Below are positions 36,864 to 42,467 of a stretch of DNA of 64,000 nt, piece by piece. This DNA comes from Flammeovirga kamogawensis (GTDB taxonomy: Bacteria; Bacteroidota; Bacteroidia; Cytophagales; Flammeovirgaceae), in the NCBI RefSeq assembly GCF_018736065.1, contig NZ_CP076128.1, positions 4,403,001 to 4,467,000 on the forward strand, in the 5' to 3' direction. A model generated the notes under the pieces. The model saw only the letters and a list, made by a program, of their open reading frames with translations. It did not search any database and was not told the DNA's origin. Each line of letters starts with the position of its first letter. The stretch's first letter is position 1. A program made the translations under genes and the position numbers.

Positions 36864-39800
36864 TTATTCTAATTTCCCTAAACGCATCATTGCTGCTGCG
36901 TAGTAATTTCCTAGAGGATATTTACGGATATATGTTTTATAACCTTCTACCGTATCTATCTCTTGTGCTTTTTTCCAATCATCTTCTTCTTTTGCTTGAG
37001 AATCATTTTTTAAAGCACTAATATTTTCTTTTGCTTCTTTCCAATACGACTTACTTGTTGTACTATTTAAGTAATTAAAGTAAGCACCTAATGTGTTTTC
37101 TTCACAAGTACTTTTCCACAGAGCTTCTTCTTCTGCATCTATAGAAGGTGCAGTTGCTGTTAGTTCTTCCTTTACTTCAGGAATTGGAGTTGTTTCCTCT
37201 GCTACTACTTCTTCTTCTGTAATTTCTGTAGTAACGTCCTTTTCAAGGTTAAATTCAGTTTCTGTTTGTACTATAGTTTCAACTTGTACTTCATGACCGT
37301 TTGTATAGTCAGTAGTACTTTCTTCTACTAAATCAGGTAATGTAGAAGGAGTTTCTTCTTCAACTACTGTTTCTTCTATTATAGTGTCTTCAACTACAGG
37401 AGTAGAATTATCCTCAAAAGTTATCGTTTCTCCTTCGTCAGCATTCTGAATCGTATTAATTCTAGAATAAGCATCTGCAAGATATTCGTTTTCTTCAGTA
37501 CGGTTTAAGTACTCTTTGTAAGAATCTATAGTATTTAAACCACTAGCAATTCTCCAAAGATCACTTTCGTTCATACCATCAATAAAAACAAGAGCACTGT
37601 CTACAGCTGGAGTGTTAATTTCTTCTGCAGCAATAGGAGCAGGAGTTTCTTCAATAACGGGTTCAGGAGTAGTAACCTCTTCTATTACATTTACTACCTC
37701 TTCTTCTGCTACTACAGGTGTTTCTTCTGTAACAGAAGGAGTTTGAGTAATAACTTCAACAGGTTCTCCTTTGTCTAGTTTATTAATTCTAAAATAAGCT
37801 TCTGCAATTTGCTCGGCAGTTTTAGTAAAATTAATATAAGATAAGTAACCATCTTTAGTGTTCAGCTTTTCAGCTCTTAACCAAAGGTCATTTTCAGAAA
37901 GTTGCTCAAGGTCCTCTTCAGAAGTGCTAACATTATTTGTAGTTGATGTTGCTTCTTCTATTTCAGTGTCGAAAGTAGTTTGTACAATTTCGTCTTTAAC
38001 ATCAGATGTTACTTCTGTAAATTCTTGAGCAGACGATGTTATTTCTTGTGCTTCTTCTAAACTGAATGAATCTTCAGAGGTAATTATTTCTGATGGTGTT
38101 TCAAAAGAGATTTCACTCTCTTCTTCTTCCACTTCTCGTAAAGCTTCTTCTAAAACAGAGTCCATTTCAGAAACAACAGTCGAAGTTTCTTCTTTTTCGT
38201 CATCATCAAAATCAATTTCTTTATCGAGTTGCATTCGTTCCATATCAGTCCATAAAAGGTATTCTCCTTTTAGGCCTTTAGCTTCTTCAATCTTAGTAAG
38301 AACATCTTCAATAGGTTCCATTCTAAGATCCATAAGTAACGTAGGATCGATATCTATTTCTTCTTGCGGAATTTCTTTTCTTTCAACGACAACAGGAGCA
38401 GGAACAGCTTCTTCTTGTAATTTTTTAACTACTGTCTGTTTGTTGATTTGCTCAATTCTTTGTTTTGATTTCTCAACAAACTTTCCTTCAGGGAACATGT
38501 TTTGATAGAATTGATATCCTTCTACACTATTCCAAATTGCAGTTTTTTGCCAAATTGAAGTTTCTAACTCAAGAGTAACTTCTTCTTTAGCTTTTGGGAG
38601 TAATTCATTAGACAACTCAGTTTTTAACTTATCACGAAGTTGTTCTTCAATCTCAACTTCTTTTGTTTTTAACTGATCGTTTACTTTGTTAGAAAACTCA
38701 CCTTCAAATTCTTTTCTAAGTTCATCACGCACTTCTGCACGTAATTTTTCTTCTCTTGAAAGGAATTTTTCACATTCTTCTTTTCTTCTAAGAACAACAG
38801 CGTCTTGTTTAAAATCAAGAGCTTTATTGTAATGTTCTTTTGCTTCAATAAAATTATTATCGAAGTAGGCTTTATCTCCTAAATCAATTAAAGAAGTAAA
38901 TTTTAATTCACTATTACAGAAATCAACTTTATCTTGATACCCTTTATTAGATGTATCAAATTCTAATAATTGAGTGTAAGTATCTTTAGAAGATTCAAAA
39001 TTCTTATTTGTGTACTGTTCTTCAGCAATCTTTTCTAAAGAATTTACAATGCCTTTGTGTGCAGTATCTTCTTTCAGAATTTCGTAAGCAGCTTGATATC
39101 TATTTCTAGCAGCTTCAAAATGTTGATTATTGTACATCTGCTCTGCTTGTTGTAGTGTTTCTACAAAAGCAGCCATATTATTAAATTCTTCGTCATGTTC
39201 AAATAACTCAATACCTTCTTTTAAGAATGGTAATGCTTCGGCGTAATTTTTATCATCAAAGCATTTCTTAATCGAAGCTCTAAGTTTTTGAGCAATAGAA
39301 AAACGTTTATTGAAACAGATAGGGGCATCTGGAACATCGTTACTTACAAAAGATACATGTTGTAAAGAAGCATCGTTAGAGAAGTTATTCTTTATGTCTG
39401 CAATTGTAAGTACTTCTTTTTCTTCTTCAATACCTGTTTGTAATAAAGAAGTTAAGCCAGAAGCAATGGTTTTTTGAGAATCTGATTGTCCAAGTTCTGA
39501 AACAATATATGTTTTTACAGGTCCGAAAGGAACTAGATCTTCTATTGTTTTGATACTTAGTTTGTCAAAATCGCCAAAAGTTGGTGCAGAACGATACTCT
39601 GCATCTAATACTAGAAAGGCATTTTTAGCAGAAGATTCGTTGATAATGTCAACAACTTCTGTTAAAGGTATACCATTAATATGACATTGTTTTACAGTAG
39701 TATGCGGTGATGAAAGAATAAGTTTTCCTCTTCTTTCAATCAAATATCCTGAGTAGAATAAGATTAATGTATCTTCTGTGGTATTTGCAACCTCAGCAAT

Positions 39801-40013
39801 ACGCTCTTTAATCATAGTGTTCCCTTCGGAGTCCACTAAGGAGATAATATCCTTTTCATGCAGCCCAAGAATTTGAGCGTCAGTAAGTGTGTCTCTTAGC
39901 AAACTAATGTCTTTATAAACATGCTCACGTCTATAAAGATCATCGTCTTTTAGGAATGTACCTATACCTATTAGTATAGCTCTGGATTTTGATGGATCGA
40001 ACATCAACGGCAT
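36864..40013 (-). CDS. Caspase-fold (catalytically dead) / TPR / coiled-coil repeat protein
   Basis: A 1049-residue cytoplasmic protein. Residues 1-238 align by pattern with prokaryotic caspase-like (peptidase C14) domains: RAILIGIGTF, DTLILFYSG, NAFLVLDAEYR, a QSDSQKTIASGLTSLL stretch and a closing HVSFVSNDVPDAPI. The catalytic His, normally in YYSGHG, is Tyr90 here (FYSGYL). The catalytic Cys, normally in LDCC, is Ala138 (LDAEYR). Residues 240-420 are TPR-like helices and 415-480 a charged coiled coil. From 485 to the end there are five degenerate W-x-x-A...Y-x-x-Y repeats separated by Glu/Thr/Val-rich disordered linkers. It probably acts as a signalling scaffold or decoy; no partner is proven. 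Confidence 0.75.
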   Translation of the reverse strand: MPLMFDPSKSRAILIGIGTFLKDDDLYRREHVYKDISLLRDTLTDAQILGLHEKDIISLVDSEGNTMIKERIAEVANTTEDTLILFYSGYLIERRGKLILSSPHTTVKQCHINGIPLTEVVDIINESSAKNAFLVLDAEYRSAPTFGDFDKLSIKTIEDLVPFGPVKTYIVSELGQSDSQKTIASGLTSLLQTGIEEEKEVLTIADIKNNFSNDASLQHVSFVSNDVPDAPICFNKRFSIAQKLRASIKKCFDDKNYAEALPFLKEGIELFEHDEEFNNMAAFVETLQQAEQMYNNQHFEAARNRYQAAYEILKEDTAHKGIVNSLEKIAEEQYTNKNFESSKDTYTQLLEFDTSNKGYQDKVDFCNSELKFTSLIDLGDKAYFDNNFIEAKEHYNKALDFKQDAVVLRRKEECEKFLSREEKLRAEVRDELRKEFEGEFSNKVNDQLKTKEVEIEEQLRDKLKTELSNELLPKAKEEVTLELETSIWQKTAIWNSVEGYQFYQNMFPEGKFVEKSKQRIEQINKQTVVKKLQEEAVPAPVVVERKEIPQEEIDIDPTLLMDLRMEPIEDVLTKIEEAKGLKGEYLLWTDMERMQLDKEIDFDDDEKEETSTVVSEMDSVLEEALREVEEEESEISFETPSEIITSEDSFSLEEAQEITSSAQEFTEVTSDVKDEIVQTTFDTEIEEATSTTNNVSTSEEDLEQLSENDLWLRAEKLNTKDGYLSYINFTKTAEQIAEAYFRINKLDKGEPVEVITQTPSVTEETPVVAEEEVVNVIEEVTTPEPVIEETPAPIAAEEINTPAVDSALVFIDGMNESDLWRIASGLNTIDSYKEYLNRTEENEYLADAYSRINTIQNADEGETITFEDNSTPVVEDTIIEETVVEEETPSTLPDLVEESTTDYTNGHEVQVETIVQTETEFNLEKDVTTEITEEEVVAEETTPIPEVKEELTATAPSIDAEEEALWKSTCEENTLGAYFNYLNSTTSKSYWKEAKENISALKNDSQAKEEDDWKKAQEIDTVEGYKTYIRKYPLGNYYAAAMMRLGKLE

Positions 40014-40139: not shown

Positions 40140-40394
40140 TTATTCTTCCAAGTTGTTTTGATCAATTTCTTCGTTTTTTACTTCATTATCGTAATTTTTT
40201 CGAATAATATTAATCTCAGCAAGAAAATCGTCAGGGTATGGGCTGTACTGTTCTTCTTTAGAAAGTTTCTTTTTTTCTTCGTTGATTTTTTCATGATCAA
40301 CTTTTTCTTCGCTATCTAATTCATTTGCTTTGTCTTCTGCTTCCAAAGCATCCCAATCAATTTCTTGATTTTGATTTTCTTGATTCTTTTTCAT
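40140..40394 (-). CDS. Small acidic protein, unknown function
   Basis: An 84-residue, highly charged protein (Glu, Asp, Lys, Asn and Gln dominate; W14 is the only Trp) with a predicted disordered or helical character and no signal peptide. The middle holds a more conserved-looking EEQYSPYPDDFLAEINIIRK segment. It lies 126 bases upstream of the pseudo-caspase gene on the same strand, so the two may be expressed together. Coding potential rests on a clean open frame, position and codon use similar to its neighbours. Confidence 0.6.
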   Translation of the reverse strand: MKKNQENQNQEIDWDALEAEDKANELDSEEKVDHEKINEEKKKLSKEEQYSPYPDDFLAEINIIRKNYDNEVKNEEIDQNNLEE

Positions 40395-40772: not shown

Positions 40773-42467
40773 TTATTTATGATCGCCTAAAATTTTCTCT
40801 AAAATCTTAAGTGTAATTGCATAAGTAGGGCGAACTCCTGTTAGTCCTAAACTACCATTTGCAAGTGTACTTCCTGTAATTAGAGGGTTGTCAGAAGCAT
40901 AATACGCGTATCTCACTTTTACGTCAGCACTTATATTATTTCTTATTTTAGAAGCTCCTTGAATTGCTTTCTGATAATGTGCTCCTTCCATTTCTAATCC
41001 CATTACACCCCAAGAAGAGTCTTTGAAGTATTTAAGAATATCTTTGTTTTGTAAAGATGTACCCAATACTGTAATCATTGGTCCACCTACACTTTTGATT
41101 TCTTTTAGATCAGCAAAGTCTTCTACTTTAAGGTCATTATTTACAGGGTAATTATCTGCTGTACCTTCAAAGATGTGTGCAGAAGGTATCATGATATCTC
41201 CTTTACCTCCTTTTAGAATACCGGCTTTACCCATTATAGAAACAGAACGAACATCTAATTCTATTTTATTGTCGCCATCTGTAAATGGTTTCAAGAGTTC
41301 GTCCATTGTTTCAAAAGCTTGTTCTCCAAATGCATAGTCCATTACAATAATAACAGGTGCATTATCTGGGTTTTTAAGCTTTTCAAACTTCACCTCTTTC
41401 GGTAGGTAAGAAGTAGGTATTTTAGCCATATCAAATAATTGGACTGAAATATTAGTTCCAGAGTCTTCATTTATTTGAATCATTCCTTTTTCCATAGCAT
41501 TATTAGAAATCTTATCTCTAAGATGCCCATTTTCGCTTTGGCTTACTTCTTCCATTATTGTACTGAAGTCTACTTTTGTAGTTTTCTTTCCTAGTGCATC
41601 TAAAGCAAAGAAAGAATTCATTACACTGTGTAGGTTCGAGCTAATAATATGAATAGGACGGTGTATTAATCCATTGTGTGCTAAAACACGCTTAATTTTA
41701 TCTGCCCATCTATCACCATACATGTGATGACCAATACGTTCTCTTAACGTAGGGCTGAAACTAATTACTCTAGCGTTATCTTCAAACTGCTCGTCCATAG
41801 CTAATTTACCTAACCAGTAAACAATATGGAAAAGACCGTTGTTTTTATCATTGTTCTGTAAGAATCTGTGATGAGCCGAACGTGTCTCATCGTAAGTTCT
41901 TCCTAAAAGTGTAGCTAAATAAGTAAAAGCAACCTCTTCGTTTTCTTTTGTAAGTGCTACTTTACCTGTTACAATTTCTTCTAGTTGTAACCATTCTCTT
42001 AATGATCTTCCTTTATCATCTTTAGCGTGATCTTTGATCTTTTTTGCTTCGATGTAAATAAAAGTAAGATGTGTTAATATATCGTAGATCTCACTTCTAC
42101 CTCTAGTAATTTCGATGAACATTTGTTCTTCGTCAATTCTGTAGCAATTTCTACGTCTAGCATGTGGTATGATTTTCTTAAAAGAAGATTTTTCATACCC
42201 TTCTTCTGAAGTGAGCTTTATAAATCTAGTTTCCTCAATTCCTTTTGGTAAACGATCAAAAACATAGACAAGTCCATTGAGATCGACCTTTTGAGTATCA
42301 GCTAGAGTTCCATAAATTTCAGGCTGTAAGATTAGTAAATCTTGCATGATAGCATTTCCTGATGCTCCACCTGGCTTGTAGTAACCTCTGATAAACAGAT
42401 GTCTCATTACTACGTACATTCTTTCAATTGCTGCTCTCGATGCCTGTGCTCTTGTTAATTCTCCCAT
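40773..42467 (-). CDS. Protein with C-terminal nucleoside-phosphorylase-like domain
   Basis: A 564-residue cytoplasmic protein. The last 200 residues show the signature layout of the PNP/UDP/MTAN phosphorylase fold: a MGKAGILKGGKGDIMIPS stretch (compare the G-x-A-G-x-L...GD-x-V-I-P of the family), then VMGLEMEGAHYQKA (the EMEGA purine/ribose motif) and a YYASDNPL strand near the end. The N-terminal 350 residues are helical, have no recognised domain and include many His and Arg (IPHARRRNCYR, GHHMYGDRWADKI). I recall proteins of this layout as an uncharacterised family in Bacteroidota but cannot name it safely. Activity is not shown. Confidence 0.75.
   Translation of the reverse strand: MGELTRAQASRAAIERMYVVMRHLFIRGYYKPGGASGNAIMQDLLILQPEIYGTLADTQKVDLNGLVYVFDRLPKGIEETRFIKLTSEEGYEKSSFKKIIPHARRRNCYRIDEEQMFIEITRGRSEIYDILTHLTFIYIEAKKIKDHAKDDKGRSLREWLQLEEIVTGKVALTKENEEVAFTYLATLLGRTYDETRSAHHRFLQNNDKNNGLFHIVYWLGKLAMDEQFEDNARVISFSPTLRERIGHHMYGDRWADKIKRVLAHNGLIHRPIHIISSNLHSVMNSFFALDALGKKTTKVDFSTIMEEVSQSENGHLRDKISNNAMEKGMIQINEDSGTNISVQLFDMAKIPTSYLPKEVKFEKLKNPDNAPVIIVMDYAFGEQAFETMDELLKPFTDGDNKIELDVRSVSIMGKAGILKGGKGDIMIPSAHIFEGTADNYPVNNDLKVEDFADLKEIKSVGGPMITVLGTSLQNKDILKYFKDSSWGVMGLEMEGAHYQKAIQGASKIRNNISADVKVRYAYYASDNPLITGSTLANGSLGLTGVRPTYAITLKILEKILGDHK

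Follow-up and report, generated by a model that had tools for sequence, protein, structure and literature searches.

A conserved caspase-fold protein without catalytic dyad in Flammeovirga kamogawensis, probably serving as a scaffold

The caspase-fold domain and its catalytic positions

The stretch of DNA analysed here (the window) covers 64,000 nucleotides of the Flammeovirga kamogawensis genome (contig NZ_CP076128.1, positions 4,403,001 to 4,467,000). Its reverse strand, which carries all features of the gene described below, encodes at 36864..40013 a protein of 1049 amino acids with an ATG start, for which orthologues were found. It is called here a pseudocaspase. Profile, fold and alignment comparisons assign residues 1-240 (39294..40013) to a caspase-fold domain without the catalytic His-Cys dyad.

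An earlier reading of the sequence alone had recognised a caspase-like pattern in this N-terminal region, and the homology proved genuine, though hard to detect. Even at E 10 Pfam C14 gives no match to the window protein; among the domains of 15 orthologues it matches four at E <= 1 (best 5.4e-11), 11 being without a match. The NCBIfam model caspase_w_EACC1 (NF047832) matches residues 10-209 (E 2.6e-21, model positions 1-202 of 211) with 76.1 bits, below its curated cut-off of 140 bits. In hhalign, the profile of the 15 orthologues was aligned to that of the 12 Pfam C14 caspases of the same genome at 98.4% over 205 columns. An AlphaFold model of the domain, built from six close sequences, is weak (predicted local distance difference test, pLDDT, 45.7; predicted template modelling score, pTM, 0.48). 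With this weak model, the Foldseek search of the PDB placed MALT1 at ranks 1-20 and caspase-7, CED-3 and caspase-1 lower, with unrelated folds interspersed; nothing was found at E <= 0.001 (best E 1.8e-3) and query-normalised TM-scores among the best 50 matches were at most 0.40. Sequence searches of the PDB gave no caspase, only chance-level matches. Homology to the caspase p20 domain is carried by the profile and NCBIfam evidence, the fold search depending on the weak model. By the combined evidence the caspase fold of the domain is safe, the detail of the predicted model is not.

At the position of the catalytic His of the GHG motif the alignments place Tyr90 (39744..39746), as the sequence-only reading had it. 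The Cys counterpart, given there as Ala138, lies one residue further: because the motif is D-x-C (LDAEYR vs FDSCHSG), the residue is Glu139 (39597..39599). The combination of Tyr with Glu or Asp at the two positions occurs in 9/9 genomes of the genus. None of the 21 orthologues has the dyad (His plus Cys). Among the 20 that were placed in the tree (see below), Cys is absent in all and His in 17, the two residues occurring together in none; His is kept in L024, L025 and L029. Both losses had been proposed to have happened at once, and this cannot be told, because three of the 20 orthologues retain His and none Cys. Since the loss the positions have drifted, with ten letter pairs among the dead orthologues (those without dyad) and 11 changes of dyad state across the tree, the intact/dead loss included. 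From the sequence, protease activity is predicted to be absent. A dyad hidden elsewhere in the domain was ruled out, because already in a comparison of six Flammeovirga sequences every Cys of the domain varies; Cys110, for instance, which adjoins His111, is Ser in L045.

To the question of an intact paralogue in the same genome, also raised from the sequence, the answer is positive. The genome has 12 C14 loci, all with His and Cys, plus two further caspases detected by NF047832 and likewise intact, so that 14/14 paralogues examined keep both residues. In total, 18 places match NF047832 (E <= 1e-10) against the 12 Pfam C14 loci, which points to many caspase homologues; among the matches listed, nine of the 18 are the window gene, six C14 loci and the two new caspases. 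One intact caspase gene of this genome (L108:1852-4229, contig C2) encodes by eye an apparent transmembrane segment and overlaps by one base a gene for an apparent macro-domain protein, also recognised by eye.

Distribution, phylogeny and selection

With a threshold of 235 bits or more, orthologues were found in 13/18 genomes of the window's own family (9/9 within the genus) and in 8/13 genomes of a second family (f4), one per genome at this level. Scans of the order and of the phylum scored at most six candidates per genome. Among 390 genomes of the order, 33 gave a match at E 1e-6 and 21 of these reach 235 bits, the next best having 117.5 bits; among 395 genomes of the phylum, matches were found only in the window's own genome, plus one of 34.8 bits elsewhere. 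The patchy presence in two families fits descent with losses.

The tree was built from 41 domains (20 dead orthologues, nine intact relatives and the 12 own C14 caspases). The dyad columns were taken out beforehand, and the root was placed, as an assumption, on the own caspases. The dyad status was read in 21/21 orthologues, of which G104 (a near copy, Tyr/Asp) was left out of the trees. Other near copies left out are L037, L038, L041, L043, L087, L088, L091 and L092, the first four having His plus Cys; the dyad was unread in the weaker matches (e.g., G093, G121:C389, G193:C8:679588, G118:C1:1914282, G120, G004:C1:6219713) and in L074. All 20 dead rows group in a single clade (support 99/97) with one intact/dead change, and the clade remains at 98/98 when seven clade-specific columns are also removed. 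As a control only, an arbitrarily chosen grouping of the dead rows with four intact ones was submitted to an approximately unbiased test and rejected (p 1.3e-8). Dead rows and the nine intact rows share a branch that excludes the 12 own caspases (100/99).

The separate position of the own caspases bears on the possibility that the pseudocaspase is a regulator similar to cFLIP, that is, that the dead domain pairs with an intact caspase of the same cell and inhibits it or helps to activate it. A potential partner is always available, as Pfam C14 loci over cut-off, one or more per genome, are present in all 31 genomes of the two families and the own genome has 12, all intact. However, the 10/10 genomes without a detected dead gene have C14 loci as well, and because C14 is found in 31/31 genomes this co-occurrence is uninformative on such a role. 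The domain is no recent copy of the own C14 caspases, which form their own clade, and no intact caspase was seen adjoining the gene. A regulator of this type is judged unlikely.

The nearest intact relatives are of the EACC1-associated type. All four intact rows scanned exceed the NF047832 cut-off (149-163 bits), and so does the L083 locus (169.5 bits). Five of the 12 own paralogues were scanned and gave 44-88.5 bits. Three of the eight f4 orthologues, all from genus g47, reach 127-135 bits (best 134.7) and the other five 73-84 bits. For the Flammeovirga copies the score was rejected as proof of the EACC1 type, being non-discriminating: in the NF047832 scan the own-genome caspases score up to 89.6 bits, the family up to 101.1 and the window gene 79.1. 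For this reason the argument for an EACC1-type origin rests on the tree and on the three orthologues of genus g47.

The gene located 5' of the intact caspase is a Pfam EACC1 gene at two of seven loci examined (L036 and L094; a near copy in G080 also matches) and EACC1-like at two more, L062 (15.4 bits, under cut-off) and L083 (no Pfam match). The L062 and L083 pair matches the L036 and L094 pair at 83.5%. At L040 a 5' open reading frame of similar size has no match to the EACC1 profile, and at L089 and L090 no EACC1-type 5' gene was seen. The pairs of an EACC1 or EACC1-like gene with an intact caspase gene in this Bacteroidota order are L036:1011-3315, L094:370-2688, L062:5468-8574 and L083:364-2738; in the available text of its description, the EACC1 system is prevalent in actinobacteria and sporadic in proteobacteria (PMC7159879). 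Around 20 of the 21 dead orthologues (G034 left out) 0/3001 frames were EACC1-like, with a profile of four sequences which recovered the controls L036 and L062, themselves part of it, and missed the L040 candidate. Pfam EACC1 was found in 0/31 genomes of the two families, a weak test, as the EACC1-like genes in G003 and G004 escape it too. Most likely, the dead family derives from the EACC1 conflict-type branch and is without the partner gene.

Several residues separate the dead clade from the intact rows. Lys22 (39948..39950), Glu70 (39804..39806), Arg94 (39732..39734) and Glu126 (39636..39638) are invariant (20/20) only in the dead clade. The QxHxNGI motif of the clade holds His111 (19/20) and Asn113 (20/20; both in 39675..39683), with Gln109 in 18/20. 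Lys22, Glu70, Arg94, Asn113 and Glu126 are not conserved in the intact rows, Glu126 being also Glu in 2/12 own caspases. Asp137 (39603..39605), the Asp of D-x-C, is invariant in 20/20 dead and 21/21 intact rows and may correspond to the S1-pocket Asp, the equivalent of TbMC2 Asp211, which is named as a pocket residue in the available part of its source (PMC6426788). The other pocket position (Asp35) is Asp in the dead clade only within the genus, and Asn in the nine near intact rows.

These residues could be taken to build a different active site, making the protein a new enzyme. Five of them became invariant, next to the constant Asp137 and His111 at 19/20, while the old dyad drifts. However, neither Cys nor Ser is found among the residues conserved in at least 17/20 dead rows, and to judge from the sequences the charged residues would equally fit binding or fold stability. 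A new enzyme seems highly improbable.

Compared with the nearest relative, the caspase domain has 0.0045 nonsynonymous (dN) and 0.303 synonymous (dS) substitutions per site (ratio 0.015), and for the first of the acidic linkers the values are 0.087 and 0.824 (ratio 0.106); in the other comparisons the domain dS of 2.5-4.2 is saturated. These values indicate strong purifying selection on the domain. That selection keeps a dead domain, as the sequence-only reading had proposed, is supported by the conserved fold, the single loss in the tree and the strong purifying selection. A decayed gene was ruled out by the lack of stops, the domain dN/dS of ~0.015 and the orthologues in 21 genomes. The history after the loss of the dyad is one of repurposing, not decay.

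Helical regions, W repeats and neighbouring genes

The TPR helices, the coiled-coil-like helix and the repeats read from the sequence are all present, the TPRs under the Pfam cut-off. In the full-length predicted model (pTM 0.25), the TPR-like helical region (residues 241-415; 38769..39293) has a pLDDT of 56-92. It is followed by a charged helix (residues 416-484; 38562..38768) within a predicted helix of residues 405-494, which resembles a coiled coil and may form one.

Five W-repeat units of ~40 residues follow. Unit 1 (residues 485-527; 38433..38561) was recognised by the repeat profile, and units 3 (residues 815-857; 37443..37571) and 4 (residues 962-1004; 37002..37130) by profile and model. 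Unit 2 (residues 706-746; 37776..37898) is the weakest, its i-Evalue against the intact relative's profile being 2.8. Unit 5 (residues 1009-1049; 36867..36989) has 86-95% identity in the genus. The units appear as short helix bundles in the model, pLDDT being mostly about 70-85 in units 1-4 and 41-68 in unit 5, and four of the five are significant individually. A conserved linear motif starting with LLMDLRMEPIEDVL (residues 556-590; 38244..38348) is flanked by variable linkers. The linkers are acidic and their pLDDT is mostly <50. Within the genus, identity is 72% in the caspase domain, 68-95% in the W units and 77-83% in the motif, as compared with 55-65% in the TPR region, 48-58% in the long helix and 18-44% in the linkers. 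By sequence, the architecture is best described as conserved beads on a variable, acidic string.

The same W repeats are found in L062:5854-8574, an intact EACC1-type caspase with 12 of them, part of which also matches BamD/YfiO family models. The profile of eight W units from L093 (the same gene as L062) found units in 20/20 dead orthologues, and none at E 1 in the 12 own paralogues, some of which end at the locus edge, or in five other intact relatives. In the own genome only the window gene matches the W-repeat profile at E 0.1, a profile that includes the gene's own units. The restriction of the W repeats to this gene within the genome is a further point against a regulator of the cFLIP type.

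In 8/8 genus loci examined the order is tgt, a small gene with a lipoprotein-like start, a methyltransferase gene, DUF6909, the gene for a protein of 84 amino acids, the pseudocaspase, usp and an AspT-type permease gene; extra open reading frames interrupt it in one of the eight. Across the genus, the gene for the DUF6909 protein (40773-42467, reverse strand) thus keeps a fixed place close to the pseudocaspase. The 84-residue protein (40140-40394, reverse strand) is small and acidic, belongs to no Pfam family and is encoded 126 bases upstream of the pseudocaspase gene. It is located beside the pseudocaspase in 9/9 genomes of the genus and in G193. As an obligate partner it was ruled out, being present in 4/4 genomes of genera g5 and g7, where no pseudocaspase was found. 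At seven other loci ten neighbours were scanned, among them recA, BrkB, an ABC transporter and an exonuclease-like gene.

At L050:8012-12192 and L052:5758-9460 the gene immediately upstream of the orthologue encodes an alpha/beta-hydrolase, and in the window such a gene is located three genes away from the pseudocaspase. The L050 and L052 hydrolases share no similarity cluster. At L051, from the genus of L050, the upstream gene is a different one, and at L063, the third locus of that genus, it lies outside the hydrolase's cluster.

These neighbours bear on the possibility that the protein continues to act in a conflict or cell-death pathway, be it as a sensor, decoy or pro-death factor. The hydrolases recall the alpha/beta-hydrolase genes that the available text of PMC7159879 reports beside the caspases of VMAP conflict systems. 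The EACC1-type scores of the nearest intact relatives and the EACC1 or EACC1-like genes at four of their seven loci point the same way, and the pseudo-orthocaspase SyOC of Synechocystis may, by the accessible part of its report, be pro-death under oxidative stress (PMC7889975). Against these stand the differing hydrolases and upstream genes, the fixed synteny in the genus, the negative searches for EACC1 given above and the result of PADLOC, which has no match for the pseudocaspase; of nine neighbours, the methyltransferase alone gave matches, the best to mad2 (E 2.9e-9) and weaker ones to three further methyltransferase models. The decoy or sensor envisaged in the sequence-only reading thus finds little support, given the single copy, the housekeeping-type synteny, the lack of an adjacent EACC1-like frame and the negative PADLOC result. 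A present conflict role is regarded as quite improbable.

Proposed function and comparison with known systems

The pseudocaspase is proposed to be a scaffold or adaptor that has no catalytic function and descends from an EACC1-type caspase, with a probability of about 0.62. It is probably cytoplasmic, as no signal peptide was seen by eye. In the tree, the caspase domain lost its intact dyad a single time, ahead of the divergence of the sampled members; it would now bind a protein or peptide. In a caspase topology Lys22 would follow strand 1 and Arg94 the former His strand, His111/Asn113 would precede helix 3 and Asp137 would end the former Cys strand, all of them on the old active-site edge of the sheet. 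Because these residues edge it, the old cleft, perhaps together with the following TPR solenoid, is the likely binding surface. The 90-residue helix may oligomerise the protein, and the W-repeat modules on their acidic, flexible linkers could offer several docking sites; docking modules and an oligomerising helix would therefore gather partners into one complex.

Several points weigh against a scaffold of this kind. The gene was not found in 10/31 genomes of the two families and is for this reason not indispensable there. Outside the genus, the only neighbour found conserved is the 84-residue protein, whose gene recurs there (G193) and also exists without the pseudocaspase. W unit 2 is not significant alone and unit 5 is modelled poorly. 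The clade-specific residues are placed by topology, on a domain whose model is poor (pLDDT 45.7), and they could be structural (salt bridges) instead of forming a binding site. As to the finer detail of the origin, the order among the intact relatives adjoining the clade is weak (81/77).

Of the earlier scaffold or binding proposal, the part that stands is the dead caspase kept under selection together with scaffold parts, to which the nearest intact relatives add the EACC1-type conflict branch; a present decoy or sensor role is little supported. Tentatively, the protein may be seen as a domesticated conflict-system caspase. The dyad and the EACC1 membrane partner would have been lost before the sampled members of the two families diverged, and the active-site edge (Lys22, Arg94, His111 and Asn113, with Asp137 kept) rebuilt into a conserved ligand-binding site. 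The protein would now be a housekeeping assembly platform, corresponding in design to the dead caspase domain of Raptor.

In comparison with known systems, the EACC1-associated caspases (System 4; Kaur et al. 2020, PMC7159879; NCBIfam NF047832) are the neighbouring lineage to the window family in the tree, and the intact relative L062 shares the W repeats of the family. In contrast to them, the window family has no dyad, no EACC1 gene was found for it and its scores are below 140 bits. The auto-proteolysis proposed for the EACC1-associated system requires, in the available text, an intact peptidase dyad (PMC7159879).

Raptor of mTORC1, in which arginines assist the binding of substrate motifs in a cleft (PMC6325617), may be compared in plan with the window protein, by analogy only. 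The window protein differs in having no HEAT, WD40 or Raptor_N match in Pfam, Raptor_N matching weakly in 2/15 orthologues (best E 0.0014). To our knowledge, bacteria have no TOR pathway. Through its death-effector domains cFLIP controls a closely related caspase, and neither such regulation nor such domains were found for the window protein. Similarly to the window domain, that of cFLIP is described in the available text as an inactive caspase domain kept by selection (PMC8195603).

The closest comparison is with the bacterial pseudo-orthocaspases, described in the accessible part of Klemencic et al. (2019, PMC6426788) as having a p20-type domain with replaced dyad residues, Tyr for His being common. 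At least one substituted dyad residue defines them, and the window protein has two (Tyr90 and Glu139). Shared with the window family are the replaced dyad, the YA and HA pairs and the kept specificity-pocket Asp; some published members (FS type, Rhizobiales) also carry C-terminal TPRs, as does the window protein. The YE, YD, TH, DS and VP pairs, the long helix and the W-repeat modules were not met in the available text of that account (PMC6426788). Its census, collected at E < 1e-4 with a p20 hidden Markov model that was built on the Pfam C14 seed, reported pseudo-orthocaspases mostly in Alphaproteobacteria and Cyanobacteria and few in Bacteroidetes (10 of 1078). The whole Pfam C14 model, distinct from the census's own p20 model, misses the window protein at E 10. 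Searches of the open-licence PubMed Central literature found no description of the window family or its architecture, nor of its series of dyad replacements or its origin next to caspases of the EACC1 type.

The family is an old, conserved pseudocaspase outside the groups where the census saw most, and the starting point of that census, the Pfam C14 seed, is of importance since the C14 model passes over the window protein and 11/15 orthologue domains. Its origin next to conflict-system caspases is traceable and gives a before/after record of residues lost and fixed. The role of dead caspase domains in bacteria becomes testable through a small set of residues and a partner search. The undescribed system expected from the sequence alone is not wholly undescribed as a kind, pseudo-orthocaspases with TPRs included being published (PMC6426788, as available). 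The pseudo-orthocaspase is a known kind of protein, and the window protein is one more variant of it.

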